Positions 19,254 through 61,037 of a DNA stretch of 64,000 bases are shown piece by piece. The notes beneath the pieces were generated by a model. That model saw only the letters and a program-made list of their open reading frames with translations, did not search any database and was not told the origin of the DNA. Positions within the stretch are counted from its first letter, which is position 1; every line of letters begins with the position of its first letter. The position numbers were made by a program, and so were the translations under genes. The stretch is from a virus, in IMG/VR virus record IMGVR_UViG_3300046694_000296, positions 151,657 to 215,656 of that record; one strand, 5' to 3'.

Positions 19254-19260
19254 CCTGAAG

Positions 19261-19281
19261 GAAGGGCCGGGCAACCGGCCC
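19261..19281 (+). other. hairpin with GCAA loop between nrdA and next gene
   Basis: A perfect stem AAGGGCCGG / CCGGCCCTT closed by a GCAA tetraloop (about 19262-19283) lies immediately after the nrdA stop, with no T-tract. Similar GCAA-loop hairpins follow nrdB (20585-20601) and precede thyX (21078-21099). They may be mRNA-stabilising or processing structures. Confidence 0.5.
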
Positions 19282-19290
19282 TTGTCACCT

Positions 19291-19551
19291 ATGAGCAATG
19301 TCATCGACCTCGGCGCCCGACGCGCCGCCAAGCAAGCGCCCGCACCTGTTGTCGAAGAAGCGCCGCTGCCGGCCGCCATGCAACAGGCGATCGAGCAGAA
19401 CTTCGCGCAGATCGGATTTGCGCACTCGCTCGTCGGCCAGGCGCTTCACTTCTACGCCAATCAGGGCTTCGATCATGGTCAGCACGCACGCGTTGCGCTC
19501 GCGGCGATGAACGGCGCTCTCGAACTCGTTCCCGGAGAAACACAAGCATGA
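19291..19551 (+). CDS. small protein between nrdA and nrdB
   Basis: 86 aa. Mainly helical (MQQAIEQNFAQIGFAHSLVGQALHFY) after a short disordered Pro/Ala segment. Stop overlaps the nrdB start (ATGA). ATG 19291 was preferred to TTG 19282. Function unknown; its position suggests an RNR accessory. Confidence 0.6.
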   Translation: MSNVIDLGARRAAKQAPAPVVEEAPLPAAMQQAIEQNFAQIGFAHSLVGQALHFYANQGFDHGQHARVALAAMNGALELVPGETQA

Positions 19552-20540
19552 AAACCGCCGCACAGATTATCAACGAACGCCGGCTGGCCTTCGGCCCGAA
19601 GTCGGAGCTGATGGCGATCTCGCCCGCCAAGCACAAGTGGGCGCGCGACATCTGGCGTCAGATGAAAGCGAACAACTGGGACTTGCACGAGACGGATCTG
19701 ACCGAGGACGGCCCGTGCTGGCGCAGCGGCCGCATGACCGAAGGGGAGAAGTTCGCCTACGAGAGCGCGCTCGCATTCGCCTCGAACCTCGATGGGTTCC
19801 AGCTGCACTCGCTCGCCAACGTCGAGGCGTGCATCACCTCGCCCGAGGTGGAGATGTGCATCAAGCGCCAGATGTATGAAGAGGCGCTGCACGTCGACGC
19901 CTACAGCGAGATGGTCGAGACGATCAGCTCCGATCCGATGAGCGTCTACATGCGTTTCGAGCGCGACGGCATGCTCGCAGCGAAGAACGAGCACATCCTC
20001 GAGCAAAACCATATTCTGAAAGCAGAGCAGACGCCCGCACAGTTCGCCCGCGCCATCGTCGCGAACATTGCGCTGGAGGGCATCTACTTCTATAGCGCGT
20101 TCCTGGTGTTCTACGCGCTCGCACGCAACGGGAAGATGACCGGCTCGGCCGACAGCGTGAAGCTGATCCACCGCGACGAGCGCACGCACCTCGGCCTCTT
20201 CAAGAAGATGCACGAGACGTTCATGGCCGAGAACCCGGAGGTCTACGACGCGCAGTTCTGGGCCGACGCAGAGGCGATCCTGAAGGGCGCGGTGGATCTC
20301 GAAGCAGCATGGGGCGGCTACATCGTCAGCAAGGGCATGCTGGGCCTCACGCCGAAGATCATCACCGAGTTCCTGCAGACGACGGCGAACGAACACGCGG
20401 TCGATATCGGCCTGGCGCCCCTGTTTCCCGGCGTCAAAGACCCGGTGCCGTGGTTCGGCCCGTTCTCGCGCGGCGAAGAGTCCAACTTCTTCGAGGCCAA
20501 GGTCGGGGACTATGCCGTGGGCACGCTCGACTGGGATTAA
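19548..20540 (+). CDS. nrdB: ribonucleoside-diphosphate reductase, beta subunit
   Basis: 330 aa, the radical-generating small subunit of class I RNR. EEALHVDAY provides metal ligands Glu112 and His115 and a Tyr119 in the position of the E. coli radical tyrosine. Further ligands are plausible in IALEGIYFYSAF and LIHRDERTHLGLF. The C-terminal DYAVGTLDWD is a plausible NrdA-binding tail. Coupled to the upstream small gene. Confidence 0.92.
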   Translation: MKTAAQIINERRLAFGPKSELMAISPAKHKWARDIWRQMKANNWDLHETDLTEDGPCWRSGRMTEGEKFAYESALAFASNLDGFQLHSLANVEACITSPEVEMCIKRQMYEEALHVDAYSEMVETISSDPMSVYMRFERDGMLAAKNEHILEQNHILKAEQTPAQFARAIVANIALEGIYFYSAFLVFYALARNGKMTGSADSVKLIHRDERTHLGLFKKMHETFMAENPEVYDAQFWADAEAILKGAVDLEAAWGGYIVSKGMLGLTPKIITEFLQTTANEHAVDIGLAPLFPGVKDPVPWFGPFSRGEESNFFEAKVGDYAVGTLDWD

Positions 20541-20557
20541 TTCGCCGTAACGTATAA

Positions 20558-20575
20558 GTCACGCGTTACTATACT
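20558..20575 (+). promoter_or_regulatory. promoter with upstream operator, lipoprotein gene
   Basis: GTCACGCGTTAC (20558-20569) directly abuts TATACT (20570-20575), followed by a GCAA-loop hairpin in the leader (GCCCGG-GCAA-CCGGGC). Confidence 0.65.
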
Positions 20576-20619
20576 GTCACCTAACGCCCGGGCAACCGGG
20601 CATTACCTGAAGGAAGAGC

Positions 20620-21048
20620 ATGAGAAAGAAACTGATGTGCCTGTTGAGTGTCGCCGCGCTGTTCGTTGTCACCGCGCTTGCGTTGACCAGCTGCGGCCAC
20701 CGCGACGACTACGCCTATCCGCAAGCACCGGCGGTCGCCCAAGCGCCTGTCATCCAGCAAGCGCCCGCGTATGTCGCGCCGCCGGTCACGGTCGTGCAAG
20801 CCGCGCCTGCCCATGACGGTTTCCTCACCGGGATGCTGATGGGCCACCTGATGTCGGGCGGCGGCACACAGAACCACTATTACCACCCGCCTGCGCCCGC
20901 GTATCACCCGGCGCCCGTGGTGCGCAACACAACGATCGTCCAGCGCAACACGACTATCGTGCGACCGGCGGTTGCGGCACCACGCGCCGGGGCATACGTG
21001 TATCGCCCATCCCGCCCGAGCAGCTTCGGCTCGTTCAAACGTCGATAG
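20620..21048 (+). CDS. phage lipoprotein, Pro/His-rich
   Basis: 142 aa. A basic N-terminus and hydrophobic stretch lead to the lipobox LTSC, with Cys25 or so as the expected lipidated residue. The mature part is low-complexity (Pro, Ala, His, Tyr) with a repeated NTTIV motif and a basic end. Probably exported to the host envelope during infection; a role in superinfection exclusion or lysis is possible but unproven. It is expressed from its own promoter. Confidence 0.7.
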   Translation: MRKKLMCLLSVAALFVVTALALTSCGHRDDYAYPQAPAVAQAPVIQQAPAYVAPPVTVVQAAPAHDGFLTGMLMGHLMSGGGTQNHYYHPPAPAYHPAPVVRNTTIVQRNTTIVRPAVAAPRAGAYVYRPSRPSSFGSFKRR

Positions 21049-21177
21049 TCGCGCCAGAAGTCTGATTTGAGAATGTCGGTCGGGCGCAATGCCCGACCCA
21101 ATCGAGAGGTTCCATTGACGTCGCACACCGGACCGGTGGCGAGCTCAATGCAGTCTTTCAACGAGGAGTAACCACAC

Positions 21178-22050
21178 ATGATCGAAGTCAATGGCAAGAA
21201 CTGCCGCGTGCGCGTCATTGCGCACAGCGTCCCGGATTTTCGCGACAACGCGAAGGAAATCTTTACGCTGGAGTTGCGTTACTGGCGGGCGGTGCATTCC
21301 GAGCTTATGACGCACCGCGACTTCAGCCGCAACGCCGGCTCGTCGCGAGCGATCCCGGTCGCCAAGATGATCGAGCAGGTCCGCAACGACCCGGCCGGCC
21401 CGCTGCATTGGGGCAAGAACCAGCCCGGCATGAAAGCGCAAGAAGAACTCACGCTTGACCAGCAGGAGCACGCGAAGATCATTTGGCGCGACGCGGCGAA
21501 CGCAGCGGCCGACTACGCTCAGCAGATGATGGATCTCGGGCTGCACAAGCAAGTCGCCAACCGGGCTCTTGAGCCGTATCAGTGGATCAACGTGCTCGTC
21601 ACCTCGACGGAATGGGACAACTGGTTCAATCTGCGCGCGCACGCCGACGCCCAGCCCGAGATTCAAGACCTCGCCTACACCATGCGCGACGCGATGGAGC
21701 AGAGCACGCCGGTCAAGCGCGGCATCAAGCGCGACAGCGAAAACGGGTGGCACCTGCCGTATGTGCTTGACAGCGAGCGCGAATTCATTCGCCTCGACGT
21801 GCTCAAGAAGCTCTCGACGGCCCGCTGCGCGCGCCTGTCCTATGAGCCCTTTGACGGCAACGCGGCGATCGAGAAGGAGATCGAGCGCTACAACCTACTG
21901 GTCGGCAGCGAGCCGCTGCACGCATCGCCCACTGAGCACCAAGCCTGCCCGCTGCCGGCCGGCTCGGATCAAAGCCGCAACTTCCGGGGTTGGCACCAGT
22001 ATCGCGTGAACGTCGAGGCAGACGCTTATCTGGCGAAGCGCGCAGCGTAA
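21178..22050 (+). CDS. thyX: flavin-dependent thymidylate synthase
   Basis: 290 aa. The ThyX signature appears as THRDFSRNAGSSRAIP (residues 45-60), a variant of R-H-R-x7-S. YQWINVLVTSTEWDNWFNLR and AQPEIQDLAYTM match the substrate-binding region. It makes dTMP from dUMP using methylene-THF and FAD. SD GAGGAG is well placed before the ATG. Confidence 0.9.
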   Translation: MIEVNGKNCRVRVIAHSVPDFRDNAKEIFTLELRYWRAVHSELMTHRDFSRNAGSSRAIPVAKMIEQVRNDPAGPLHWGKNQPGMKAQEELTLDQQEHAKIIWRDAANAAADYAQQMMDLGLHKQVANRALEPYQWINVLVTSTEWDNWFNLRAHADAQPEIQDLAYTMRDAMEQSTPVKRGIKRDSENGWHLPYVLDSEREFIRLDVLKKLSTARCARLSYEPFDGNAAIEKEIERYNLLVGSEPLHASPTEHQACPLPAGSDQSRNFRGWHQYRVNVEADAYLAKRAA

Positions 22051-22057
22051 TGCAACG

Positions 22058-22097
22058 GTAACGGGTTGCCTCACTATACTGATAAGTAACCCGTTAC
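22058..22097 (+). promoter_or_regulatory. promoter flanked by two operators
   Basis: TATACT (22075-22080) lies between GTAACGGGTTGC (22058-22069) upstream and a perfect GTAACCCGTTAC (22086-22097) downstream over the start region. The double arrangement is best explained by repression. Confidence 0.7.
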
Positions 22098-22135
22098 ACA
22101 CGGTTAAAACGAAACCTCTACAGGAGCAACACCTC

Positions 22136-22816
22136 ATGACCGAAGCCGCAAACATGAACACGATGGACAACACGACCTACCACGCTGAAGTCCTGTCGAC
22201 CGAATCGAAGCCCGACGCGATCAACTTCGGCCCGGCGACGCTGATGATGGCGCTGAACCTCGCCGTGCAAGCGGGCAACCTGCTCGACCAGATCAAGCGC
22301 GCCGTGTTCTACGGCAAGGACATCGACCCGCAGATCGCCGGCCAGGCGCTGCAAGCGATTCCTGCGATGGCGAACGACATCAAGTTCCCGCTCGCGACGG
22401 ATCGCTACCGCGACCCGCGCGACGCCGATTTCTACAACAGCATCGACCCGAAGGCGAAGGAAATCCTGTCGCTGCATGGCGTGGACGTGCGCCTGCTGCA
22501 CGCGGCCCTCGGTCGCTTTACCGAGTCCACCGAGTTCATCGAGGCGCTGGTCCCGACGTTCTTCGGTCAGGTGTTCGACAAGGTGAACGGTCTGGAAGAA
22601 ATCGGCGACGGCCGCTGGTATGACGAGATTGCGCTCGACGCACTCGGCTACACCGCGGAGCAGTGCAACTTCACGAACATCAAGAAGCTGAAGGACAAGA
22701 AGGCGGGCCGCTACCAGAAGGGCGCGTTCGATCCGAACGCTGCAGTGGATCGTGACACGACCGCCGAGCGCGCACTGCTCGAAGCGGGCGCGGCCACCGA
22801 AGCACAGGCGGCGTAA
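22136..22816 (+). CDS. MazG-like nucleotide pyrophosphohydrolase
   Basis: 226 aa. The C-terminal half matches the all-alpha MazG pattern: LLHAALGRFTESTEFIEAL, then VNGLEEIGDGRWYDEIALDALGYTAEQCNFTNIKKLKDKKAGRY in overlapping pieces, with a late VDRDTTAERALLE. MazG enzymes hydrolyse NTPs or dNTPs to monophosphates and may also affect (p)ppGpp. In several catalytic positions the acidic residues are replaced (TEST for typical TEAGE), so activity needs checking. Confidence 0.7.
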   Translation: MTEAANMNTMDNTTYHAEVLSTESKPDAINFGPATLMMALNLAVQAGNLLDQIKRAVFYGKDIDPQIAGQALQAIPAMANDIKFPLATDRYRDPRDADFYNSIDPKAKEILSLHGVDVRLLHAALGRFTESTEFIEALVPTFFGQVFDKVNGLEEIGDGRWYDEIALDALGYTAEQCNFTNIKKLKDKKAGRYQKGAFDPNAAVDRDTTAERALLEAGAATEAQAA

Positions 22817-23443
22817 GTGATTGGGCTTGCAGGTTCGCAAAGAACGGGCAAGTCCACGCTCGCGAAGGCGTATGCGGAGGAGTCGGGGGTGAAGTTCATC
22901 GCCACCGGCGCTTCGGCCACCTTCGCGCGTCTTGGACTGGATCCAAAGAAGGACTACGACTTCGCGACGCGCCTGCGCACACAGCGTGAAATTCTCGCCG
23001 ACTGCGACCGGCTCTATGACAGCGCAGGGGTGCGCTTCATCACCGACCGCACGCCGATCGACTTTCTCGGTTACACGCTCGCCGATGTCACACGCGAGAA
23101 CGTGCGCGGGAAGCTCGAAGTGGAGCTGCAGCGCTACGTTGACGATTGCTACGCCTGTGCGAATAAGCACTTCACCGTGCTCATCCTCGTGCAGCCGGGC
23201 ATCGCGCTCGTCGAGGCAGAAGGCAAGGCGCCGGCAAGTCCGTCGTATATGGCGCACGTGAACGCGCTGATGCTGGGCCTGATGGCTGACGAAGCACTGC
23301 AAGCCGACCACTACAAGATTCCGCGCCGGGCCATCGAGCTCGAGATTCGGATCAGCGCGGTCGAGGAAGCAGTGCGGAAGTCAGCGCAGCGCCACGTCGC
23401 GAAGATGGAGCGATTGCACGAAGACGGGCTGGTGCTGCACTAG
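22817..23443 (+). CDS. P-loop kinase, possible deoxynucleotide kinase
   Basis: 208 aa AAA/NadR-like P-loop NTPase. Walker A GSQRTGKST at the extreme N-terminus and a lid-like segment TDRTPIDFLGYTL. The GTG start immediately follows the stop of the MazG-like gene. Its place beside MazG, ThyX and RNR suggests nucleotide salvage or dNMP phosphorylation; substrate cannot be read from sequence. Confidence 0.65.
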   Translation: MIGLAGSQRTGKSTLAKAYAEESGVKFIATGASATFARLGLDPKKDYDFATRLRTQREILADCDRLYDSAGVRFITDRTPIDFLGYTLADVTRENVRGKLEVELQRYVDDCYACANKHFTVLILVQPGIALVEAEGKAPASPSYMAHVNALMLGLMADEALQADHYKIPRRAIELEIRISAVEEAVRKSAQRHVAKMERLHEDGLVLH

Positions 23444-23450
23444 CCAAAAG

Positions 23451-23485
23451 AGGGAACCGACAATATCAATCAGTCGGTTCCCTTT
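23451..23485 (+). terminator. rho-independent terminator
   Basis: Perfect 10-bp stem GGGAACCGAC / GTCGGTTCCC with an 11-base A+T-rich loop, followed by TTTC. It closes the nucleotide-metabolism operon. Confidence 0.75.
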
Positions 23486-23511
23486 CAAAACAACGAATTA
23501 GAGGACATTCC

Positions 23512-24138
23512 ATGACCACTCAGAACGTCAAGCTGACGAATCACGCCCGCGACCAGATCATCCAGAACGCCCTGCACGGCGCGTTTGAAAAGGAGCGCAA
23601 GGCGAACAAGGCTCGTCTGACCAAGCTCGCCGACAAGTGCTATCGCTCGACGGTCAGCGTTGCGACCGAGAAGGCTGCCCGCCAGGCGCCCGACGACTTC
23701 CTGTATCTGTGCAACGTGATCTCGCGCATCTACTTCCGCGATGCGGAGCTGCGTCGGAACATGGACACGGCCTACGATGTGGAGCTCTCGCGTGCCGTCC
23801 CGTTCCCGGGCCGTCATACCACGCTGACCATCGAGTCCAAAGAGCTGCATGCCGAGTATGTGGAGATCATGCGAGTGGAGCGCGAGCTGGACCAGAAGCA
23901 CAACGACCTCGCGGAAAGCCTCAAGCGCACGGTCTACAGCACGTCCTCGCTCAAGAAGCTGATAGAGATGTGGCCGGAGGTCGAGAACTTCCTGCCCGCC
24001 TCCGTCACCGCACCGAAGCCCATGCTTCCGGCGCTGCCCGTCGGCGATCTGAACAATGCGCTGCGCGCCGCCGGGGTCAAGGTCGGTGTCATCGTCACGC
24101 CGAAAGCAACCGGCGGCCTTGTAGCGGTGGCAGCATGA
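23512..24138 (+). CDS. possible Nmad5-type nucleotide-modification-associated protein
   Basis: 208 aa. KLTNHARDQIIQNALHGAFEKERKANKARLTKLADKCY, seen here in pieces, resembles the start of Nmad5 domain proteins found beside phage DNA-modification genes; VPFPGRHTTLTI is a central strand. Identification is from memory of the family pattern and is tentative. Follows a terminator, so either a weak promoter lies in 23486-23511 or it depends on read-through. Confidence 0.4.
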   Translation: MTTQNVKLTNHARDQIIQNALHGAFEKERKANKARLTKLADKCYRSTVSVATEKAARQAPDDFLYLCNVISRIYFRDAELRRNMDTAYDVELSRAVPFPGRHTTLTIESKELHAEYVEIMRVERELDQKHNDLAESLKRTVYSTSSLKKLIEMWPEVENFLPASVTAPKPMLPALPVGDLNNALRAAGVKVGVIVTPKATGGLVAVAA

Positions 24139-51490: not shown

Positions 51491-51655
51491 CTACGCGCTT
51501 CGGCGCCCGAACACAAACCCTGCGGCGAACACGCACCACAGGATTTGCCCTGCCACGGCGCCGGCCGTCCAGTGCCCACCGTGTTCGAACGCGAACAGCA
51601 GGCCCGCGATGGTCGCGCCGATGAAGCTGCCCATCAGGACGAGAAAAGGTTTCAT
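51491..51655 (-). CDS. 54-aa membrane protein
   Basis: Read on the minus strand from ATG 51655 (overlapping the helicase stop, ATGA) to TAG 51491. Two hydrophobic segments: FLVLMGSFIGATIAGLLFAF and AGAVAGQILWCVFAAGFVF. The coupling and membrane pattern support a real gene. Confidence 0.65.
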   Translation of the reverse strand: MKPFLVLMGSFIGATIAGLLFAFEHGGHWTAGAVAGQILWCVFAAGFVFGRRSA

Positions 51656-53370
51656 GCTGCCTTCCTGAAAACGGAGTAGTCGAAGTCCTGCACGATGTTC
51701 TCGGCAAAGCCCGGGGTGTTCGCGATGATCGACATACGCTCCTTCTGGTGGTCGCGCAGGGTCGAGTTGACCGCTTCCTGATAGTCCACCACGAACGCGA
51801 TGTTCGGCCCGTTCTTCTTCTTGCGCAGCCCGCGCCCGATGCGCTGGCGGGTCTGCACCTCGGCCTTGCCCGCGCCAGCGAGCACGATCAGGCCCACGGC
51901 CGGCACATCGACCCCGACGTCCATGATCGAGGTGCCGATCACCGCATCGACCTTGCGGTCGCGCAGCGCGTTAAGCGCCGCCTTGCGCTCGTTCTGGTCG
52001 TTGGCGCCCTTGATGAACGCCACGCGCACGCCCGCTTGCGTGAGCATGTCCGAGAGGATGCGCCCGTGCTCGGTGCGCGACACCAGAATCATGCCCGGCA
52101 GGCCGTGCTGCTTCGCGCGGCTCACCTCGTAGACGATCGAGCGGTTGCGCTCCTCGTTGTGCACGACGCCGATCTCGTAGCACTTGGGCCACGGGGTCGA
52201 GCGAAAGAGCCGGTGCGTGACCATCTTGCCCCGGACCTCTTCCTGATAGAACGGGGCGGCTGTGCGCAGCTGCACGAACTTGAAGTAGGGCTTGGCGAGC
52301 ACGCCGAGGTCGATCAGTTGCTTCTCGGTGACGGTGATGGCCACAGGCCCGGAGCATGCCTCGAGGCGCAGGTTGTCCTCGGGCGAGTCCTTCATGAAGG
52401 GAGTGGCGGTCAGCGCGAGGCGGTAATGGGCGTTCACGCAGTGCCGCATGATCTCGTAGAAGCCGCTGCCCGACGCCTCGTGCGCTTCTTCGAGGATCAC
52501 GAACTCGACGGAGGCCAGGAACTTGATCATTTCCTCGCGCTTCCTGTTGTGTTCCGTGACCTTCGCCTGGATCTCGGCCACCACGTGTGCGTCGGGCGTG
52601 CGCTTCGCCTCGAGCTGCTGGCGCAGCGCGGTTGTCGCATCGGCGACCTGTGTCACTGGTAGCTTCTGCTTTTTCAGCTTCGCCTGCAGCTTCTCGACCT
52701 CGCGGTCTTCGGCGGCGTTGCGGTTCTTGATGAAGGCGAGCAATTCGCCCTCGTCGGTCCAGAGTTCAATCGCGGCGCTGATGGTCTGCACCATCCCGAG
52801 CGTGAACTGACGCGAAAAGTCCCGCTGGCTGTCGCCCACGACGCCCACGCGCTCGCCAAGGTTCTCGGTGACCGCATCGCCCATCTGATACATGAGGATG
52901 CCCCGCGTGGTTAGAAAAAGCGTCTTGCGGCCGATGCGCTTGTAGCAGATCCGGGCAATGCGCGACTTGCCGCCGCCGGTTGCCACGCGCGCGATGATGG
53001 CGCGGTGCTTGACCAGCTTGTCGGCCACCTCGGGCTGATAGTTGTAGGCCGGGTCGTAGCCGAACTCGTCGACCACCGGGCGCTCCGGGCCGAGTGGGGC
53101 GGGTGCGGGCTTCCTCACGAGATGGACCTTGTAGCCGGCCTTCAGGAGCGCCGCGTAGACCTTGTAGGTGAAGCCCGCCGGGAAGGTGTCATTGGCGAAG
53201 TCGTAGAAGCTCGATGAGCCGTCCCACGACGTTCCCTTGAATGCCTGCGTGTAGCTCGCGCCATCGACGAGGTAGGAGAGCTTCTCGCGCACGAGCAGCT
53301 TCGCCTCGCGCGACGCGCCGAGCAATTTTGCGTTCACCGCACCGGCGGCGAGAGTCAGTCCAGGTGTCAT
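51652..53370 (-). CDS. SF2 DNA helicase, UvsW-like
   Basis: 572 aa. Walker A ATGGGKS (residues 130-136), DEAD-box variant LEEAHEASG, motif III LTATP, motif V region GTSIMDVGVDVPA, motif VI QRIGRGLRK. An internal coiled-coil insertion (REVEKLQAKLKKQ ... VTEHNRKREEM) lies between motifs I and II. UvsW-type helicases remodel R-loops and branched DNA and control the switch between origin- and recombination-dependent replication. Confidence 0.88.
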   Translation of the reverse strand: MTPGLTLAAGAVNAKLLGASREAKLLVREKLSYLVDGASYTQAFKGTSWDGSSSFYDFANDTFPAGFTYKVYAALLKAGYKVHLVRKPAPAPLGPERPVVDEFGYDPAYNYQPEVADKLVKHRAIIARVATGGGKSRIARICYKRIGRKTLFLTTRGILMYQMGDAVTENLGERVGVVGDSQRDFSRQFTLGMVQTISAAIELWTDEGELLAFIKNRNAAEDREVEKLQAKLKKQKLPVTQVADATTALRQQLEAKRTPDAHVVAEIQAKVTEHNRKREEMIKFLASVEFVILEEAHEASGSGFYEIMRHCVNAHYRLALTATPFMKDSPEDNLRLEACSGPVAITVTEKQLIDLGVLAKPYFKFVQLRTAAPFYQEEVRGKMVTHRLFRSTPWPKCYEIGVVHNEERNRSIVYEVSRAKQHGLPGMILVSRTEHGRILSDMLTQAGVRVAFIKGANDQNERKAALNALRDRKVDAVIGTSIMDVGVDVPAVGLIVLAGAGKAEVQTRQRIGRGLRKKKNGPNIAFVVDYQEAVNSTLRDHQKERMSIIANTPGFAENIVQDFDYSVFRKAA

Positions 53371-53371
53371 T

Positions 53372-54019
53372 TCAATAAACCGTGTGTTTGCGGATCGGGG
53401 TGTTGATCGCTTTTTCGTGGGACCAGCCTTTCTTGAGCCGGTAGCGAAGGGCCTGTGTCGAGCATCCGATCTCCCGCGCCCATGCTTCCATAGGCTGCGT
53501 GCGCCCGTTCGCGGTCAGCAGAACCGTTGTGCTCATGTTCGCGCCCTGTTCTTGGCGCGTCGCCCATCGACAGTTGGAGGGTTCGTAGTTGCCATCGACC
53601 TCGTTTCGTTCGAGTGTGGTGCCGCGCGAACGCGGCCCCATGTCGGCATAGAAGTTCTCGAACGTCTTCCACCGCTCGCAGACTGTGATGCCGCGGCCGC
53701 CGTATCGCTCGTAGCCATTGCAGCGGGGATCACCGGTGCGATAGAGCATCGCCTGCCACGTCCGGTATTCAGGCGTGTCGGCCATACCGTGCGTGCGCCG
53801 ACAGTCGCCGCTCTTTGCAACCTCAAGCTGCAGGCAGCCGCACGACCGCACCTTGCCGCGCTTCAAATCCGCGCTCGCGGCGGTGTGCTCCTTCCCGCAA
53901 TCGCACACGCACATCCATTTTTCGCTGCCCGCATACGACAGCGCGCGCAGGCGCCCGAACTGTTTATTCGTCAGGTCTTGGGGCTTAGGCCCGCTTTTCT
54001 TCTTGCCGGTCGATTCCAT
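53372..54019 (-). CDS. HNH endonuclease-like protein, AP2-type layout
   Basis: 215 aa from ATG 54019. CVCDCGKEH and SCGC zinc cysteines, GRGITVCERWKTFENFYADMG, then NYEPSNCRWATRQEQGANM, the standard pattern of phage HNH proteins with an AP2-like N-terminal half. A C-terminal EAWAREIGCSTQALRYRLKKGW segment looks like a helix-turn-helix. A homing-type element upstream of the helicase operon. Confidence 0.8.
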   Translation of the reverse strand: MESTGKKKSGPKPQDLTNKQFGRLRALSYAGSEKWMCVCDCGKEHTAASADLKRGKVRSCGCLQLEVAKSGDCRRTHGMADTPEYRTWQAMLYRTGDPRCNGYERYGGRGITVCERWKTFENFYADMGPRSRGTTLERNEVDGNYEPSNCRWATRQEQGANMSTTVLLTANGRTQPMEAWAREIGCSTQALRYRLKKGWSHEKAINTPIRKHTVY

Positions 54020-54059: not shown

Positions 54060-54707
54060 ATGACAACTACTCCGACAGCTCTCCGTGTTTCCGTTGACGC
54101 GCTTCGTGCAAATCCGTGGAACACCAACAGCCTCACACCCGAGAACGAAGCGAAGCTCGATGCTTCCATCGTGCGCTTCGGCGTCTACAAGCCGATCGTC
54201 GTGCGCCCGCACCCGGACGGCGAGGGCTACGAAATTCTGGGCGGTCAGCATCGGTGGGAGGCAGCGCGCCGCGCGGGCCACGCTGATGTGCTGATCGTCA
54301 ACGTCGGCCCCGTGTCTGATCTGACGGCCAAAGAGATTGGCCTCGTCGACAACGGCCGCTACGGCGAAGACGACACGCTGGCGCTCTCGCGCTTGCTCAA
54401 GGAGATGGGCGTCGAGGACATCGGCACCTTCCTTCCCTACACCGACGGCGAGCTGGAAAACATTCTCGCTGCTTCAAGTATAGATCTCGACGACCTAGAC
54501 AAGCTGGATGAGGCCGAAATGCCTGATCTGTCGGGTCCGGGCGTGGGCGCCACGCATCAGGTGATGCGCTTCAAGGTGCCTGTCGAGGATGTCGCGTGGG
54601 TCACGAGCGCCATCGAGCGCCGCCAGCGCGAGGCCGGTTTCACCACCGAAGACTCCATGACGAACGCCGGCATGGCCTTCGTCGATCTGATGAAGGCATA
54701 CAAATGA
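54060..54707 (+). CDS. ParB-like nuclease-domain protein 1
   Basis: 215 aa. VSVDALRANPWNTNSLTPEN, IVVRPHPDGEGYEILGGQHRWEAAR are the classic ParB/Srx motifs (box I GGQHR). VDNGRYGEDDTLALSRLL follows. Phage ParB-like proteins of this kind accompany DNA-modification genes or adenine methylases. C-terminal part helical. First gene of the 54-58.8 kb cassette; stop overlaps the next start. Confidence 0.8.
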   Translation: MTTTPTALRVSVDALRANPWNTNSLTPENEAKLDASIVRFGVYKPIVVRPHPDGEGYEILGGQHRWEAARRAGHADVLIVNVGPVSDLTAKEIGLVDNGRYGEDDTLALSRLLKEMGVEDIGTFLPYTDGELENILAASSIDLDDLDKLDEAEMPDLSGPGVGATHQVMRFKVPVEDVAWVTSAIERRQREAGFTTEDSMTNAGMAFVDLMKAYK

Positions 54708-55168
54708 TCCGCTACATCGGCACCAAGGTCATTCTCGCGCGCCCCATGACGCGCGGCGCATACAACGACTATCGAGGCTGGACGATTCCCGCCAACGAAG
54801 ACCCGCTTGAAGAAGGCTATCTCGTCGAATACACGGACGGCGGTGCGTCGAACCACGTCAACCACGCGGGCTATGTCTCCTGGAGCCCCAAGGACGTGTT
54901 CGAGGCAGCCTACCGACCCACCGTCGGCATGAGCTTCGGTATGGCTATCGAGGCGATGAAGATAGGCATGCGCGTCGCACGCGTGGGCTGGAACGGCAAG
55001 GGCATGTTCCTTGAGCTTTTCAGCCCATCCGGTGCCGGCCTCATTCTCCAATCGGGCGAGAGCATCTCCGAGCTTCCGTGGATCGGTATGAAGACCGTCG
55101 AGGGCAAGTTCGTGCCTTGGTTCGCATCGCAGGCTGACATGCTCTCGGACGACTGGATCACGGTATGA
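54704..55168 (+). CDS. Tad2-like (DUF2829) anti-Thoeris candidate with N-terminal extension
   Basis: 154 aa. Residues about 76-154 (MSFGMAIEAMKIGMRVARVG, MFLELFSP, IGMKTVEGKFVPWFASQADM, LSDDW) match the DUF2829/Tad2 fold; Tad2 proteins sequester the cADPR-isomer signal of Thoeris defence. The first ~72 residues form a separate small domain (YRGWTIPANEDPLEEGYLVEY, GYVSWSPKDVFEAAYRP) that I recall as a frequent partner. Whether signal-binding residues are kept cannot be judged here. Confidence 0.75.
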   Translation: MIRYIGTKVILARPMTRGAYNDYRGWTIPANEDPLEEGYLVEYTDGGASNHVNHAGYVSWSPKDVFEAAYRPTVGMSFGMAIEAMKIGMRVARVGWNGKGMFLELFSPSGAGLILQSGESISELPWIGMKTVEGKFVPWFASQADMLSDDWITV

Positions 55169-55434
55169 GCAAGCCATACGGTTTCGCCGCTATCCCGCGC
55201 GCCGAGTTTCTCTACCCGGAGTGCGAGTCCTGCTACTTCCACAACCTCGAGCCTGCCATCTGCGAGAACTGCGACAACGGCGATCAATACGAGCCGGATG
55301 ACGACCTCGAAGACAAGCTCTCCGAGCGCAAGGCCGCCATCGTGCGGTTCTTCCGCAAGATCAGAACACCCCTGCCGGCCGAGTTCCTGCAAGACGAACT
55401 GCCGGTGCCCGAAAAGGAGCTCGAAGCAGCATGA
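55165..55434 (+). CDS. small zinc-site protein
   Basis: 89 aa, ATGA overlaps both sides. CESCYFHNLEPAICENCDNG supplies C-x2-C / C-x2-C. Acidic middle and a basic helix. Possible adaptor in the cassette; function unknown. Confidence 0.6.
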   Translation: MSKPYGFAAIPRAEFLYPECESCYFHNLEPAICENCDNGDQYEPDDDLEDKLSERKAAIVRFFRKIRTPLPAEFLQDELPVPEKELEAA

Positions 55435-56075
55435 GCCAAGTCACCCGAACCAATGAAGTGCGTGCGGTCGCCGACCTCGTGCCGTATGCGAAGAACGTCA
55501 AGAAGCACGACGACGCGCAGGTCGCCAAGATCATCGAGTCGGTCCAGCAATTCGGCTGGACGCAGCCCATCGTGATCGACGAAGCCAACGTCATCATCGC
55601 CGGCCACGGCCGGCGCCTGGCGGCCACCAAGCTCGGCATGAAGCAGGTGCCGGTGCTCGTGCTGCGCGGCCTGACCGATGAGCAGAAGCGCGCGCTGCGC
55701 CTGGCCGACAACCGCACGAACGAGGGCGGCATCGACACGCTCATGTTCCGCGAGGAGATGCTTGGCATCGAGGATCTGCTCACCGGCATCTTCGACACGA
55801 AGGAGCTCGAGTTCTCGGCGGCCGATCTGGGCACGCTCAACGAGGCTGCCTTCGTGCCCGACGTCGCGGAAGCGGTCGAGATGCAGGAGATGGAAGCGCA
55901 CGCGAAGGCCGATGAAGTCGTTGCGCGCCGCGTGCCGCTCTCCAAGGCATTCGGCTTCAAGGACGTGGCCGGCGCGCACGAGATCCACATCTCGCGCTTC
56001 ATGGCGCGTGCGCAGGCCGAAACCGGGTTGACGGGCGCCGACGCGCTCGCGGCTTTCCTCGAAACCCTCGCGTAA
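55431..56075 (+). CDS. ParB-like nuclease-domain protein 2
   Basis: 214 aa. ADLVPYAKNVKKHDDAQVAK, IVIDEANVIIAGHGRRLAA (box I GHGRR) and LRLADNRTNEGG are characteristic of ParB-like proteins linked to phage DNA modification. Only distantly like ParB-like protein 1. Stop is followed by an operator-like repeat. Confidence 0.85.
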   Translation: MSQVTRTNEVRAVADLVPYAKNVKKHDDAQVAKIIESVQQFGWTQPIVIDEANVIIAGHGRRLAATKLGMKQVPVLVLRGLTDEQKRALRLADNRTNEGGIDTLMFREEMLGIEDLLTGIFDTKELEFSAADLGTLNEAAFVPDVAEAVEMQEMEAHAKADEVVARRVPLSKAFGFKDVAGAHEIHISRFMARAQAETGLTGADALAAFLETLA

Positions 56076-56087
56076 GTAACCCGTAAC
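56076..56087. promoter_or_regulatory. operator-like repeat inside cassette
   Basis: GTAACCCGTAAC directly after the ParB 2 stop and two bases before the ATG of the ABC ATPase. No -10 hexamer nearby. Confidence 0.45.
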
Positions 56088-56089
56088 TC

Positions 56090-56806
56090 ATGACCACATA
56101 CACCATCGACAAGCGCTTCCACACGCGCGTCGCGCGCAGCCAGCGCGTCGTGGAAGTCGCTGAAGCGTTCGGCCTTGGGCTGGACGACAAGGAATTCGTG
56201 ATCTTCGACCAGCTGAAGCTGGACGTCGCGCAAGGCGACGTGATCTACATCACCGGCCAGTCCGGCAGCGGCAAGTCGCTGCTCCTGCGCGAGCTGTCCG
56301 CGCAGATGGCCGCCGAAGGCCAGAAGGTCGCGAACCTCGATGAGGTGGCGATCGACCCGGATGCGCCGCTCATCGACCAGATCGGCACCAGCACGAACGA
56401 TGCGATCCGGCTGCTCTCGATTGCCGGCCTGAACGACGCGTATCTCTTCATCCGCAAGCCCGGCGAGCTCTCCGACGGCCAGCGCTACCGCTTCAAGCTC
56501 GCCAAAGCCATCGAGTCGCAGGCCGACGTCTGGGTCGCTGACGAGTTCATGGCGGTGCTCGACCGGACCGCGGCCAAGGTGATCGCGTATGCCGTGCAGA
56601 AGACCGCGCGCAAGGTCAACGCGACCGTGATCGTTGCGACTACCCACCTCGACCTCGTGGAAGACCTGCAGCCGTCGCTCTACATCGAAAAAAGGTATCG
56701 AGAAAAGCTGCGCATCGAAGCATTCACCGACCTCAACGCGGCGGCCGAAGGCTCGAAGACCCTCACGCGCGATGAAGCCTACGACCTCATGAAAAGGATG
56801 GCCTGA
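56090..56806 (+). CDS. ABC-type ATPase of DNA-modification cassette
   Basis: 238 aa soluble ABC ATPase. Walker A GQSGSGKS (56-63), signature LSDGQRYRFKLA (127-138), Walker B VWVADEF (147-153), and TTHLD H-loop. No transmembrane region, so not a transporter. In many bacterial and phage genomes this ABC module is fused to, or next to, a Mom-like GNAT and a ParB protein; here the parts are separate genes with a thioredoxin between. Confidence 0.85.
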   Translation: MTTYTIDKRFHTRVARSQRVVEVAEAFGLGLDDKEFVIFDQLKLDVAQGDVIYITGQSGSGKSLLLRELSAQMAAEGQKVANLDEVAIDPDAPLIDQIGTSTNDAIRLLSIAGLNDAYLFIRKPGELSDGQRYRFKLAKAIESQADVWVADEFMAVLDRTAAKVIAYAVQKTARKVNATVIVATTHLDLVEDLQPSLYIEKRYREKLRIEAFTDLNAAAEGSKTLTRDEAYDLMKRMA

Positions 56807-57135
56807 TGAACCCGAAGTATGAAGCGGCGCTCGAAGCGTCGAAGACCCGCCCGCAAGTCGTGATTTTCACGGCAGCCTGGTGCGGCCCGTGCAAGCTGCT
56901 CAAGCCCGCGCTGCAGGCGCTCAAGGCCGACTACGGCTTTGACTATCACGAGTTCGACGCAGCGGAGTTCGAGCAGGCGGAGTTGCTGACGCTCGGCGTG
57001 CGCAACGTGCCGAACGTGCGCGTGCTCCTGAACACCGTCGTGAAGGCACAGTTCGTCGGCGCGCGCACGAAGGCGCAGGTCGAGGACTGGCTCACGGAGC
57101 TGGGCGTCATCTCGCGCGGACTGAGCTTCGAATGA
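56806..57135 (+). CDS. thioredoxin-like protein
   Basis: 109 aa. FTAAWCGPCKLLKPALQ has the active-site CGPC; VRNVPNVRVLLN has the cis-Pro loop. May reduce the RNR alpha subunit or serve the neighbouring modification enzymes. Overlaps both neighbours by ATGA. Confidence 0.9.
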   Translation: MNPKYEAALEASKTRPQVVIFTAAWCGPCKLLKPALQALKADYGFDYHEFDAAEFEQAELLTLGVRNVPNVRVLLNTVVKAQFVGARTKAQVEDWLTELGVISRGLSFE

Positions 57136-58109
57136 GCGCGCCGGCGACCGCGGTGCCGATCGAGTTCGACACCGACATCGACAACCTCACACTCGGCTGG
57201 CGCGATCCGGCGGCCGGCACGCGGCCGCTCTCGCTCATGAAGCACATGTATGTCGAGCGCGGCACGCTGGAAGACTGGCAACTGCTGCACGAGCTCCACT
57301 ACAAGGCGAGCAACAACGGCATCGGCCCGCGCTACGTGCGTCTGGTGATCGACGACGGCGTGGAGCCGGCGCTCACCATCGGCGTGATGGTGTTCACGGT
57401 GCCCAAGCCCCTGGACTCGGGCCGCAATCAGGTGTTTCCGCACCTGCGGCCGAACCAGAACGGGCGCGACAACCGGCTCATCAACGTGCAGCGCATGGCG
57501 TGGATCAACAAGAACCTGATCCTGTCCTCGCGCACGGTGCTCGACACGATGTATCGCGGCGGCGGCATCGCCTACCGCTTCAAGAACATCGGCTACCGGC
57601 TGATGGGCTTCCGCTATGTCGAGAGCCGCAGCTCGATGAGCCGCTACAACCCGTTCTCCATCAAGGCGGGCATGCGCTTCGTGAAGCCGAAGTCGGCGCC
57701 GGCGTTCGAGACGGGCCTCGCGTTTTTCGCGCGGCACTTCAAGAGCCCGGCCTACGACTACGTGGCGATCAAGGCCGAGATCGAGGCGATGCCCGACTAC
57801 CTGCGCGAGCACACGCTCAAGGAGCTGCGCGCCTTCTACTACCGCAACAGCTCGATGGAAAAGTCGGGCGACAACCGGTTGAACGGCACCTCCCGCGTCG
57901 AGCAGATGGAGCTCGGCTACCTGCTCAAGCAGACCCAGCAGCTCGTGTTCGGCGCGACCGTCTATGCCGCGTGGGCGAACCCTGACTGGGATCCAACGAC
58001 GCAGGCCATGCGCGCGCTGCCCGCGCGTATCCCGCTTTCCGCATTCGACAACCAAGCGGTCGATGAACCGCTGCGACTGGACCTTCTGGAGACACACCAT
58101 GACGCTTAA
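57132..58109 (+). CDS. Mom-like GNAT acyltransferase
   Basis: 325 aa. VRLVIDDGVEPALTIGVMVF, then LSSRTVLDTMYRGGGIAYRF (acyl-CoA-binding-type loop about 141-147) and SMSRYNPFSIKAGM (about 168-181), a signature I associate with GNAT domains partnered with ABC ATPases. A C-terminal helical domain follows. By analogy to Mu Mom it may acylate adenine or another base. Substrate and base are not predictable. Confidence 0.65.
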   Translation: MSAPATAVPIEFDTDIDNLTLGWRDPAAGTRPLSLMKHMYVERGTLEDWQLLHELHYKASNNGIGPRYVRLVIDDGVEPALTIGVMVFTVPKPLDSGRNQVFPHLRPNQNGRDNRLINVQRMAWINKNLILSSRTVLDTMYRGGGIAYRFKNIGYRLMGFRYVESRSSMSRYNPFSIKAGMRFVKPKSAPAFETGLAFFARHFKSPAYDYVAIKAEIEAMPDYLREHTLKELRAFYYRNSSMEKSGDNRLNGTSRVEQMELGYLLKQTQQLVFGATVYAAWANPDWDPTTQAMRALPARIPLSAFDNQAVDEPLRLDLLETHHDA

Positions 58110-58326
58110 AACGACTGCCAAGACGCTGTGCGTAGTGGGCACCAAGGGCGCGCTCTCGCCCTGGACGATGGAAACGGTCGACGACGTGGCCGACGTGCGC
58201 GGCAAGGCGTATGACTTCGTGATCTGGGCGCGCACCCCCTCGAAAGAGGAATACGAGGCCGTGGCCGCGACGCTGAAGGGCTCGGAGTATGGCGACCACT
58301 TCTGGACCTGCCGGCGGCCGCGATGA
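58099..58326 (+). CDS. small hypothetical protein
   Basis: 75 aa, overlapping the Mom-like gene by 11 bases. ALSPWTMETVDDVADVRGKAYDF suggests a short alpha-beta fold. Overlaps the next start (ATGA). Function unknown. Confidence 0.5.
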   Translation: MTLKTTAKTLCVVGTKGALSPWTMETVDDVADVRGKAYDFVIWARTPSKEEYEAVAATLKGSEYGDHFWTCRRPR

Positions 58327-58760
58327 ACCTCACGATCAAGCAGATCGAGATCATGAAAGTGGTGGCCGCAGCCACCGCTGCCGAGCCGGTCGATCTGGAT
58401 CAGCTGCTCGAACGCCTGCCCTACGCGACCACCAAGGAGAGCCTGCAGTTCTCCTTGCGTGCGATCGAGCGGCACGGGCTGATCGACCGCAGCCACGCCG
58501 AGCACCGCCGCGGGCGTCTGCGGCGGCTCGTCAAGCCTACGGATATGGGGCGCGCGGTGATTGGCGGAACCGGCAGGCCGGCGCCCGGGCCGGGCTCTTC
58601 GATCGGAACGAAGTCGGACGAACCGCAGTTTGTGGCGAGCTCCGATCCGCGACTCATGGAAGAAGTAACGCAGGACTTACCGGAGCCGGAGCTTCTTTCT
58701 CTCCCGGAGCTGTCTCTTCCCGAGCCGGTGCCTTTCCTCGAAGAAGAGTTTATTGATTAA
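58323..58760 (+). CDS. winged-helix-type regulator candidate
   Basis: 145 aa. LTIKQIEIMKVVAAATAAEP, LLERLPYATTKESLQFSLRA and IERHGLIDRSHAEHRRG give helix-turn-helix plus wing. C-terminus is acidic and Leu/Pro/Glu-rich. Last gene before the AT-rich island. Confidence 0.5.
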   Translation: MNLTIKQIEIMKVVAAATAAEPVDLDQLLERLPYATTKESLQFSLRAIERHGLIDRSHAEHRRGRLRRLVKPTDMGRAVIGGTGRPAPGPGSSIGTKSDEPQFVASSDPRLMEEVTQDLPEPELLSLPELSLPEPVPFLEEEFID

Positions 58761-59067: not shown

Positions 59068-59080
59068 TTGAGAGCCAGTG

Positions 59081-59764
59081 ATGACGGATACGACGACCGA
59101 GCCGAAAAAGACCGGTGGCCGCAAGCCCGGCAGCCGCTCGCTTTCAGAAAAGCAAAAGGCCGAGGCGTGCGCGCTCTATGCTGCGGGCGAACTGACGATT
59201 GAGCAGCTTGCCACGCGCTACCAGCGCACCCCGCGTGCGATGAGCGCGATGTTCTCGAAGGCGGGCGTGAAGAAGGGCGAGAAGCGCGCCGAAGTGCAAG
59301 CCGCTGTCACCCAGCAGGTCAACCAGCAGATCGCGGGCGACGCGGCGGTGATGGCCGGCAAGATTCGCGAGACGAAGGACTCGCACTACGCGGCAGCGAA
59401 GGTCATCGCGGGCCTGATCCAGAAGCAGCTCGTCAATGCGCAGTCGCAGGGCAAGCCGTTCGCCACCGTCCAGAACGAGATCAAGACGCTCAAGCTCGCG
59501 GCCGAGGCGCTCGCCACGCTGCGCGAGGAGCGCTTTGTGATCCTCGGCATTGCCGACGGTGAGAAAGACGAGAACAACGAGCTGCCGGAGCTGGGCATTC
59601 ACGAAATGACCGCCGAGCAAATCCTCGAGATGCAGTCGCGGCAGGACGACGGCGGCCTGGACCTGAGCCCGGACGAAGACGCAATGCCGGTGCTGCCGTC
59701 GCCGGCCGAAGAAGAGGGCGTGGCCGACGCAATCGACATCGAGGACGACGATGCGGGTGCGTGA
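59081..59764 (+). CDS. terS: terminase small subunit-like protein
   Basis: 227 aa. KKTGGRKPGSRSLSEKQKAEA and YAAGELTIEQLATRYQRTPRAM form a helix-turn-helix DNA-recognition domain. Long helices follow (QQVNQQIAGDAAVMAGKIRE), then an acidic tail (AIDIEDDDAG). It precedes and overlaps the large subunit by 14 bases. It would recognise the packaging site. Confidence 0.75.
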   Translation: MTDTTTEPKKTGGRKPGSRSLSEKQKAEACALYAAGELTIEQLATRYQRTPRAMSAMFSKAGVKKGEKRAEVQAAVTQQVNQQIAGDAAVMAGKIRETKDSHYAAAKVIAGLIQKQLVNAQSQGKPFATVQNEIKTLKLAAEALATLREERFVILGIADGEKDENNELPELGIHEMTAEQILEMQSRQDDGGLDLSPDEDAMPVLPSPAEEEGVADAIDIEDDDAGA

Positions 59765-61037
59765 GCCGGGGCTGCCCGGGGTCACACAGCTGGCCGCGGA
59801 GATGCAGACGTTGTTCCTCCATCCGAAGCAGATGGAGGTCTTCCGATCGCCGCATCGTTTTCGCGTTGTGACGGCGGGGCGACGCTGGGGCAAAACTCAG
59901 CTCGCCAAAGTCTCGCTCATCAAATACGCCAAGGTGCCCGCGCGCCTCGTGTGGTATGTCGCGCCGTCCTACCGGATGGCCAAGCAGATCATGTGGCCGG
60001 ACCTGATCGCCGCGATCCCGCGCAAGTGGGTCAAGAAGATCAACGAGACGACGCTCACGATCACGCTGAAGAACGACACGCGGATCGAGCTGAAGGGCGC
60101 CGACAACCCCGACTCGCTGCGCGGCGTGGGCGTGCACTTTCTCGTCATGGACGAGGTGCAGGACATCAACCCCGAAGCGTGGAAAAAGGTGCTGCGCCCG
60201 ACGCTGGCCTCGACCGGCGGCCACGCGCTCTTCATCGGCACGCCCAAGTCATACAACTTCCTGTATGACCTGCACATGCTCGGCCAGGATCCAAAGAACC
60301 AGATTCTCGGCCGCTGGAAGAGCTGGCAGTTCCCGACGATCACCTCGCCCTTCATTCCGAAGTCGGAAATCGAAGCGGCGCGCGCCGACATGGACGAGAA
60401 ATCGTTCAAGCAAGAATTCGAAGCCTCGTTCGAAACGATGTCGGGCCGCGTGTATCACCCCTTCGATCGCAAGGTCCACACGGGCAACTATCCGTTCAAC
60501 CCGAGCCTGCCGATCTGGGTGGGGCAGGATTTCAACATCGACCCGATGAGCTCCTGCATCTTGCAGCCGCAGGAGAACGGCGAGGTGTGGGTGATTCACG
60601 AGCTCTCGCTCAAGTCCTCGAACACCGAGGAGGTGTGCGACGAGCTCGAACGCCTCTACTGGAAGCTCATCAAGCGGGTGTCGATCTTCCCCGATCCGGC
60701 CGGCGGCTACCGGCAGCACGCGCGCGGCGAGTCGGACGTGGACATCTTCAAGCAGAAAGGCTTCAAGAGCGTCGTCTACCGCAAGAAGCACCCGCCTGTG
60801 GCCGACCGGATCAACGCGGTGAACCGGATGCTGCGCTCGGCCGACGGGCGCATTCGCCTGCGAGTCGACAAGCGCTGCAAGGAAGTGATCCGGGCGCTGG
60901 AGCAGACGATCTACAAAGAGGGTGGGCGCGAGGTCGACAAGGACATGGGCGTCGATCACATGGGCGACGCTCTGGGCTATCCGATCGAGTATATGTTCCC
61001 CGTGCGTGAGATCAGCATTGCAGGCGTGTCGCTGTAG
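59751..61037 (+). CDS. terL: terminase large subunit
   Basis: 428 aa packaging motor. Walker A GRRWGKT (43-49), adenine-binding VVTAG, Walker B FLVMDE (130-135), coupling motif LFIGTPKS. The nuclease domain has VGQDFNIDP (RNase H-type metal Asp), ISIFPDPAGG-like VSIFPDPAGG and late DHMGDALGY. Cuts concatemers and pumps DNA into proheads. Confidence 0.93.
   Translation: MRVREPGLPGVTQLAAEMQTLFLHPKQMEVFRSPHRFRVVTAGRRWGKTQLAKVSLIKYAKVPARLVWYVAPSYRMAKQIMWPDLIAAIPRKWVKKINETTLTITLKNDTRIELKGADNPDSLRGVGVHFLVMDEVQDINPEAWKKVLRPTLASTGGHALFIGTPKSYNFLYDLHMLGQDPKNQILGRWKSWQFPTITSPFIPKSEIEAARADMDEKSFKQEFEASFETMSGRVYHPFDRKVHTGNYPFNPSLPIWVGQDFNIDPMSSCILQPQENGEVWVIHELSLKSSNTEEVCDELERLYWKLIKRVSIFPDPAGGYRQHARGESDVDIFKQKGFKSVVYRKKHPPVADRINAVNRMLRSADGRIRLRVDKRCKEVIRALEQTIYKEGGREVDKDMGVDHMGDALGYPIEYMFPVREISIAGVSL

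Follow-up and report, generated by a model that had tools for sequence, protein, structure and literature searches.

ParB-like proteins, a soluble ABC ATPase and a GNAT acyltransferase encoded beside phage terminase genes: a candidate system for acylation of a DNA base

The stretch of DNA analysed here (the window; 64,000 nucleotides, positions 151,657 to 215,656 of the IMG/VR virus record IMGVR_UViG_3300046694_000296) carries a block of genes for two ParB-like proteins, a soluble ATP-binding cassette (ABC) ATPase and a GNAT-fold acyltransferase, next to the terminase genes (Table 1). These genes, together with a thioredoxin and a Tad2-like gene, had been named in an original prediction as a cassette for the modification of a DNA base. 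We found that all of the named genes exist, in frame and well above chance in Pfam or, for the GNAT, in PHROG, and that the two motifs given for the GNAT are exact (YRGGGIA at residues 141-147 and NPFSIKAGM at 173-181). The Tad2-like gene does not lie upstream of the cassette, as had been stated, but between the two ParB genes. All genes of the cassette are on the plus strand and neighbours abut or share a few bases, with base 56806 common to the ABC ATPase and thioredoxin genes and bases 57132-57135 to the thioredoxin and GNAT genes. Therefore, the genes from ParB1 to the GNAT are probably a single transcriptional and translational unit. The portal gene comes after TerL, downstream of the cassette.

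Table 1. Genes of the block and its flanks in the window, a distant Nmad5 gene, and loci of fused relatives with decarboxylase and CoA-transferase genes
Feature	Position	Strand	Remarks
Nmad5 (PF18757)	23512..24138		86 bits, cut-off 27
UvsW-like DEAD/DEAH helicase	51652..53370	-	conserved left neighbour; not counted in the proposed machine
HNH endonuclease gene	53372..54019	-	between helicase and ParB1
ParB1, ParB-like N-terminal domain protein (phrog_723)	54060..54707	+	PF02195, PHROG
Tad2-like protein (PF11195)	54701..55168	+	accessory, outside the core
89-aa protein	55165..55434	+	accessory; precedes ParB2; in 33/91 loci
ParB2, ParB-like protein (phrog_930)	55431..56075	+	of a type that also occurs in fusions with phage DNA methyltransferases
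Soluble ABC ATPase	56090..56806	+	PF00005 and complete motif set
Thioredoxin (CGPC)	56806..57135	+	variable slot between ABC ATPase and GNAT; not core
GNAT-fold acyltransferase (phrog_886)	57132..58109	+	catalytic candidate; PHROG, fold, conserved residues
Small protein, weak winged-helix match (phrog_900)	58323..58760	+	between GNAT and TerS; PHROG E 2.9e-17
DNA-binding TerS candidate (phrog_867)	59078..59764	+	linked neighbour; PHROG E 1.6e-38; 86/91 loci
Terminase large subunit (TerL)	59751..61037	+	linked neighbour; similar to the TerL annotated in RHEph10 and nickie; 86/91 loci
ABC-GNAT, aspartate decarboxylase, class III CoA-transferase	L033:2926-5691, L069:2829-4895, L086:738-2826		loci of fused relatives

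Both ParB-like proteins score above the cut-off for ParB_N (PF02195), ParB1 with an E-value of 2.6e-12 and ParB2 with 5.5e-7. ParB1 matches its PHROG at E 1.8e-56 and has the invariant residues WN, G62-H64 and D97-N98, while ParB2 matches phrog_930 at E 2.9e-67 and has the invariant motifs IxGHGRR and DN. Moreover, ParB2 matches the N-terminus of the methyltransferase phrog_498 (E 7.6e-35) and that of MTase_II in PADLOC (E 2.4e-22). The two proteins lack the features of a ParABS partition system: they match ParB_N only, and not a full ParB with its C-terminal domain for DNA binding and dimerisation, and no ParA lies beside the block; no dedicated search for ParA or parS was made elsewhere in the genome. 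The ABC ATPase (ABC_tran, PF00005, E 4.6e-13) has an ordinary ABC-ATPase fold in its structure model and conserves the Walker A motif GQSGSGKS, the signature LSDGQ, the Walker B motif VWVADE, the D-loop and the H-loop TTH. The database label "ABC transporter" was rejected, since neither the operon nor the conserved block holds a membrane partner subunit. Its PADLOC matches, to Mads and Septu ATPases, are at the level of general ATPases only, and therefore the protein was not filed under defence.

The GNAT matches PHROG 886 at E 1.4e-99 and has no match in Pfam. Its acyl-CoA motif RGGGIA is canonical, with R142 and G143 invariant and G145 near-invariant, and the residues conserved in the family are HYK 56-58, R142-G143-x-G145, SSMS 167-170 and N173. 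The closest PDB structures to the AlphaFold2 model (mean pLDDT 84) are GNAT enzymes, the top Foldseek match being NAT10 with an E-value of 5.7e-4 and a TM score of 0.31, which is weak and at the level of the GNAT fold. The predicted structure establishes the fold and says nothing on the substrate. No match was obtained with the GNAT profile against PDB sequences, and the viral fold library returned mostly generic GNATs and no informative family.

The block is conserved far beyond the window. Our locus set comprised 91 loci carrying the GNAT, 85 of which have enough sequence to judge the ABC ATPase; the two are paired in all 85, and in the other six the sequence breaks off no more than about 1 kb from the GNAT. 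The unit of ParB, ABC ATPase and GNAT foreseen in the original prediction is thus borne out. In the SSU5/nickie/Rhizobium-phage group, the order is helicase (minus strand), ParB1, ParB2, ABC ATPase, a variable slot, GNAT, winged helix-turn-helix (wHTH) protein, TerS, TerL and portal, as seen in SSU5, Cyrano, nickie, hairong, RHEph10, RHph_Y2_11, B1VFA, ANB28, BUCTxx99 and relatives from IMG/VR. The helicase has the same strand and position in 71 of the 91 loci searched, the remaining ones being mostly truncated, and the phrog_900 protein, whose Pfam winged-helix matches are weak (E 0.08), is kept in 84. Pairwise distances of the GNAT correlate with those of the ABC ATPase (rho 0.80), ParB2 (0.84), ParB1 (0.80) and TerL (0.77); among GNAT, ABC ATPase and ParBs, rho lies between 0.72 and 0.84, and for each of them against TerL between 0.66 and 0.77. 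Considering this pairing and the correlated distances, the module behaves as a core part of the phage group with largely vertical inheritance.

In the virus record of 215,656 bases, of which the window is a part, two diverged phage genomes, each about 107 kb long, stand head to tail with a nucleotide identity of 77-90% over the stretches compared (L008-L010). Probably two strains were joined in a chimeric assembly, or else the tandem is a natural one. ParB1, ParB2, the ABC ATPase, thioredoxin and the GNAT recur in the second copy of the block (L008). Between the two copies, dN/dS rises from 0.088 in the ABC ATPase through 0.12 in TerL, 0.15-0.19 in the ParBs and 0.18 in the GNAT to 0.25 in thioredoxin. 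Every cassette gene is under purifying selection, and the ABC ATPase is the most constrained in the block.

The GNAT is also carried by 905 PLSDB records (341 from Klebsiella, 207 from Escherichia), mostly plasmids of Klebsiella, E. coli, Acinetobacter, Enterobacter and Salmonella. Among the matches listed, these plasmids are mostly near 110 kb in size, which, together with the relation to SSU5, suggests that they are phage-plasmids. The nearest PLSDB plasmid is from Cupriavidus metallidurans, with 68% identity.

Searching with the ABC ATPase of the window retrieves ABC-GNAT fusion proteins in unrelated phages, for example Leptospira phage LE3, Pasteurella phage Pmp13, Rhodococcus phage Jace, Gordonia phage BiggityBass and Nonlabens phage P12024S; the expectation that the two parts are fused in other genomes was therefore correct. 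The C-terminal half of the fusions from Jace and P12024S exceeds the Pfam cut-off for Acetyltransf_1. A scan of IMG/VR for fused forms gave at least 600 matches, and neighbourhoods were counted in 80 IMG/VR loci. Among the matches listed, a single ParB abuts the fused gene upstream in 43 of the 66 loci with enough sequence, and TerL lies downstream in 31 of 54 loci and upstream in none; in the other 23, all with at least 4 kb downstream, there is no terminase nearby. In Jace, too, a ParB gene is directly upstream of the fusion.

The fused proteins also link the GNAT of the window to Mom of phage Mu. The window family aligns with the fused GNATs in hhalign (Prob 96, E 4.1e-9; 18 control comparisons gave 0.13 or worse), and the fused GNATs match the Mom profile at E 6.6e-6. 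H56-Y57, which is invariant in the window family, aligns with an HY pair conserved in the fused GNATs, and such a pair occurs in all eight Mom proteins aligned. Hence the description "Mom-like" holds as an indirect, distant kinship through the fused GNATs, but not as a direct match, for which P is 0.013-0.022. Direct membership of the Mom family is not supported, and the window GNAT has a canonical RGGGIA where Mom has PRNSES.

Some fused relatives have neighbours of a chemical kind. Aspartate decarboxylase (PanD) and class III CoA-transferase genes follow ABC-GNAT in Jace and in the IMG/VR loci L069 and L086, and a formyltransferase gene follows it in Gordonia phage BiggityBass and Pseudomonas phage Komp_PAO1_1 (L034:1-2473, L035:3402-5131). 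Such neighbours would be in keeping with an enzyme that depends on a special acyl or formyl group in activated form. Aspartate decarboxylase produces beta-alanine, and the loci with both decarboxylase and CoA-transferase suggest beta-alanyl-CoA as a donor for DNA modification. Furthermore, adenine methyltransferases of Streptococcus phages (Javan422, Javan38), encoded a few genes upstream of the terminase, have the same kind of ParB domain at their N-terminus. This is therefore a genomic place that is used by DNA-modifying enzymes.

We consider ParB-targeted, ATP-driven acylation of a DNA base to be the best reading of the cassette and a moderately probable one. ParB, ABC ATPase and GNAT would be the core machine: the ParB-like proteins would sit on phage DNA and bring in the ABC ATPase, which may use its ATP cycle to load the complex or expose the base, and the GNAT would move an acyl group from acyl-CoA onto an amino group of the base. 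Acylation would be timed late in infection, near packaging, and may serve to protect or mark phage DNA. An acylated base had also been the proposal of the original prediction, and it is still the best available function, in agreement with the published GNAT-ABC prediction (PMC7824862). We favour it because ABC ATPase and GNAT are obligately paired, the ParBs lie just upstream and the distances track each other, and because the same ParB domain is found on adenine methyltransferases near the terminase. Further reasons are the PanD/CoA-transferase and formyltransferase neighbours, which suit a special acyl group, the RxxGxA motif, the HY pair in common with the fused GNATs and Mom, and the fold match to NAT10.

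Several points weigh against this reading. Between the window GNAT family and Mom there is no direct match; the genes for CoA and formyl chemistry stand beside fused relatives only, in 5 of about 86 loci, and none is in the block of the window; in the literature, we found no nucleoside analysis for any phage bearing the cassette; and simple protection from restriction needs no constant linkage to the terminase. In addition, the substrates of GNATs are many, proteins included. The GNAT might acetylate a host protein in a takeover resembling that of RNA polymerase, as proposed for phage Rac, with the ParBs and the ABC ATPase as regulatory partners. Phage GNATs acting on host RNA polymerase are described in PMC7824862 (Rac), and the fold matches of the window GNAT are broad, but its obligate pairing with ABC ATPase and ParB and the late-gene position fit DNA better, and we regard a host protein as an improbable target.

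The link to the terminase deserves separate consideration, since in the whole group the block is invariably directly upstream of wHTH, TerS, TerL and portal. It may be a packaging or segregation module without base chemistry, in which ParB marks the DNA, the ABC ATPase acts in an SMC-like way and the GNAT acylates the terminase, the capsid or a host protein; the acylated protein would then switch the phage to packaging. The co-divergence of the module with both TerL and TerS, the one-sided position of TerL at the fused loci and the ParB and ABC folds, which are typical of DNA organisation, are in line with this. On the other hand, a ParB domain of the same kind is fused to DNA methyltransferases, some fused loci have no terminase nearby, and the presence of PanD and CoA-transferase beside fused relatives is in keeping with a small, special acyl group, so that we judge this explanation possible but unlikely. 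The two ideas may also be combined, which we think quite unlikely: ParB and ABC ATPase would deliver the GNAT to the DNA and set a mark tied to the terminase, so that only the phage's own finished genomes are packaged. The mark would be a special acyl group, which in some relatives might be e.g. beta-alanyl or formyl, and the system would be spread over phages and phage-plasmids from many bacterial phyla.

The thioredoxin gene between ABC ATPase and GNAT had been taken to indicate a redox step. Thioredoxin (PF00085, E 3.5e-13) might indeed be a working part of a redox-dependent modification chemistry: it is the commonest occupant of the slot, giving the order ABC-thioredoxin-GNAT in 57 of 85 loci, CxPC and the cis-proline are kept in every one of them, and its gene overlaps those of both neighbours. 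However, it is absent, with ABC ATPase and GNAT intact, from SSU5, Cyrano, nickie, ANB28 and the Rhizobium phages. In the 57 loci, thioredoxin distances barely follow those of the GNAT (rho 0.38) or the ABC ATPase (0.19), in part because a short, very divergent protein saturates, whereas the nearly as divergent TerS reaches 0.85 and 0.67. Moreover, a separate glutaredoxin is found in none of 16 genomes with the slot thioredoxin but in 7 of 12 without it (Fisher p 7e-4; 0.01 once relatives are collapsed), and 5 of the 28 genomes have neither. The glutaredoxin gene comes directly after ribonucleotide reductase in the Rhizobium phages; in ANB28, about 1.6 kb separates the two. Owing to the variable slot, the lack of co-divergence and the complementarity with glutaredoxin, thioredoxin was rejected as a member of the core; its participation in the modification chemistry is very unlikely, and the protein is probably an electron donor for ribonucleotide reductase or a partner in nucleotide reduction. 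A match to the ribonucleotide reductase family is present in all 28 genomes and weak in 4 of them (G010, G016, G020, G021), where the enzyme is very divergent, with weak PF02867 matches in open frames of 827-857 aa.

The idea that the thioredoxin is unique to the clade of the window phage was contradicted by the larger locus set. Loci without it often hold a small hydrophobic SNFFVVFLLGLQSKNV-type protein in the slot (L182, L192, L199, L201). A protein of some 180-195 aa with a YGGAFYxCT-like motif also recurs in the slot (L197:5406-5951, L203:5406-5951, L215:5367-5951).

Tad2 and Nmad5, which had been proposed as further components, are unlinked accessories and, like thioredoxin, stand outside the mechanism. 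The Tad2-like protein, a candidate anti-Thoeris factor, has a complete PF11195 domain (profile 1-73/73, E 1.9e-21), but its gene is missing from the second copy and from most relatives, and its position shifts from between the ParBs in the window to between ABC ATPase and GNAT in Rhizobium phages. The Nmad5 gene is likewise real; as a partner of the cassette it fails, since it lies 30 kb away, only 11 of 28 relatives carry it and all eight named phages tested lack it. It belongs to a cluster at positions 16977-24138 of the window with ribonucleotide reductase subunits, ThyX, a MazG-like protein and a P-loop kinase, possibly a separate route of nucleotide modification. The 89-aa protein has no family match in Pfam or PHROG. 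The HNH gene, which was not seen between helicase and ParB1 in the second copy, is likely a homing endonuclease.

According to a jumbo-phage survey (PMC7824862), Iyer et al. 2013 predicted that an ABC ATPase-coupled GNAT makes an acyl modification of DNA, and the survey repeats this prediction with Tenacibaculum phage pT24. Our literature search turned up no experiments on the cassette or the ABC-GNAT prediction, nor any data on which bases make up the DNA of SSU5-, nickie- or RHEph10-like phages. Given this prediction and no experimental test found, the cassette is, by its sequence, best classed as a member of the predicted ABC-GNAT DNA-modification kind. It has an ABC ATPase of the same family (E 1e-16 against pT24) with intact motifs, and a GNAT partner that is homologous to the ABC-fused GNATs, carries the acyl-CoA motif and stands in a phage context. 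It differs in its separate ABC and GNAT genes, the two ParBs, the slot gene and the fixed place beside the terminase. With Mom of phage Mu, which makes N6-carbamoylmethyl adenine, the GNAT has in common the superfamily, the HY motif, the late phage gene and the link through the fused GNATs; it differs in having RxxGxA instead of PRNSES, no direct match (P 0.013), ABC and ParB companions and no Com regulator seen. The RNA cytidine acetyltransferases NAT10/TmcA also combine a GNAT acting on a nucleobase amine, as predicted for the window, with the help of an ATPase, but this is a RecD-like helicase instead of an ABC ATPase, and the similarity is at the fold level only. The fusions of ParB-N to DNA adenine methyltransferases share the ParB-like domain and the place upstream of the phage terminase, and use a SAM methyltransferase instead of ABC ATPase and GNAT.

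As far as the searched literature shows, the split form with two ParBs as a core block of SSU5-type phages, its steady link to the terminase and the CoA-supply neighbours are new, as is a model that does without thioredoxin, Tad2 and Nmad5. If the cassette modifies DNA, an uncharacterised base modification would be present in a very common group of phages and phage-plasmids, as the PLSDB records and the IMG/VR matches of the fused forms indicate. This would bear on restriction, on sequencing artefacts and on the spread of phage-plasmids. The PanD and CoA-transferase neighbours allow a concrete, testable guess as to which group some members attach, and the fixed link to the terminase raises the separate question of whether a mark is read during packaging. 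Moreover, the wide carriage of the GNAT on plasmids makes the idea of DNA modification open to testing.

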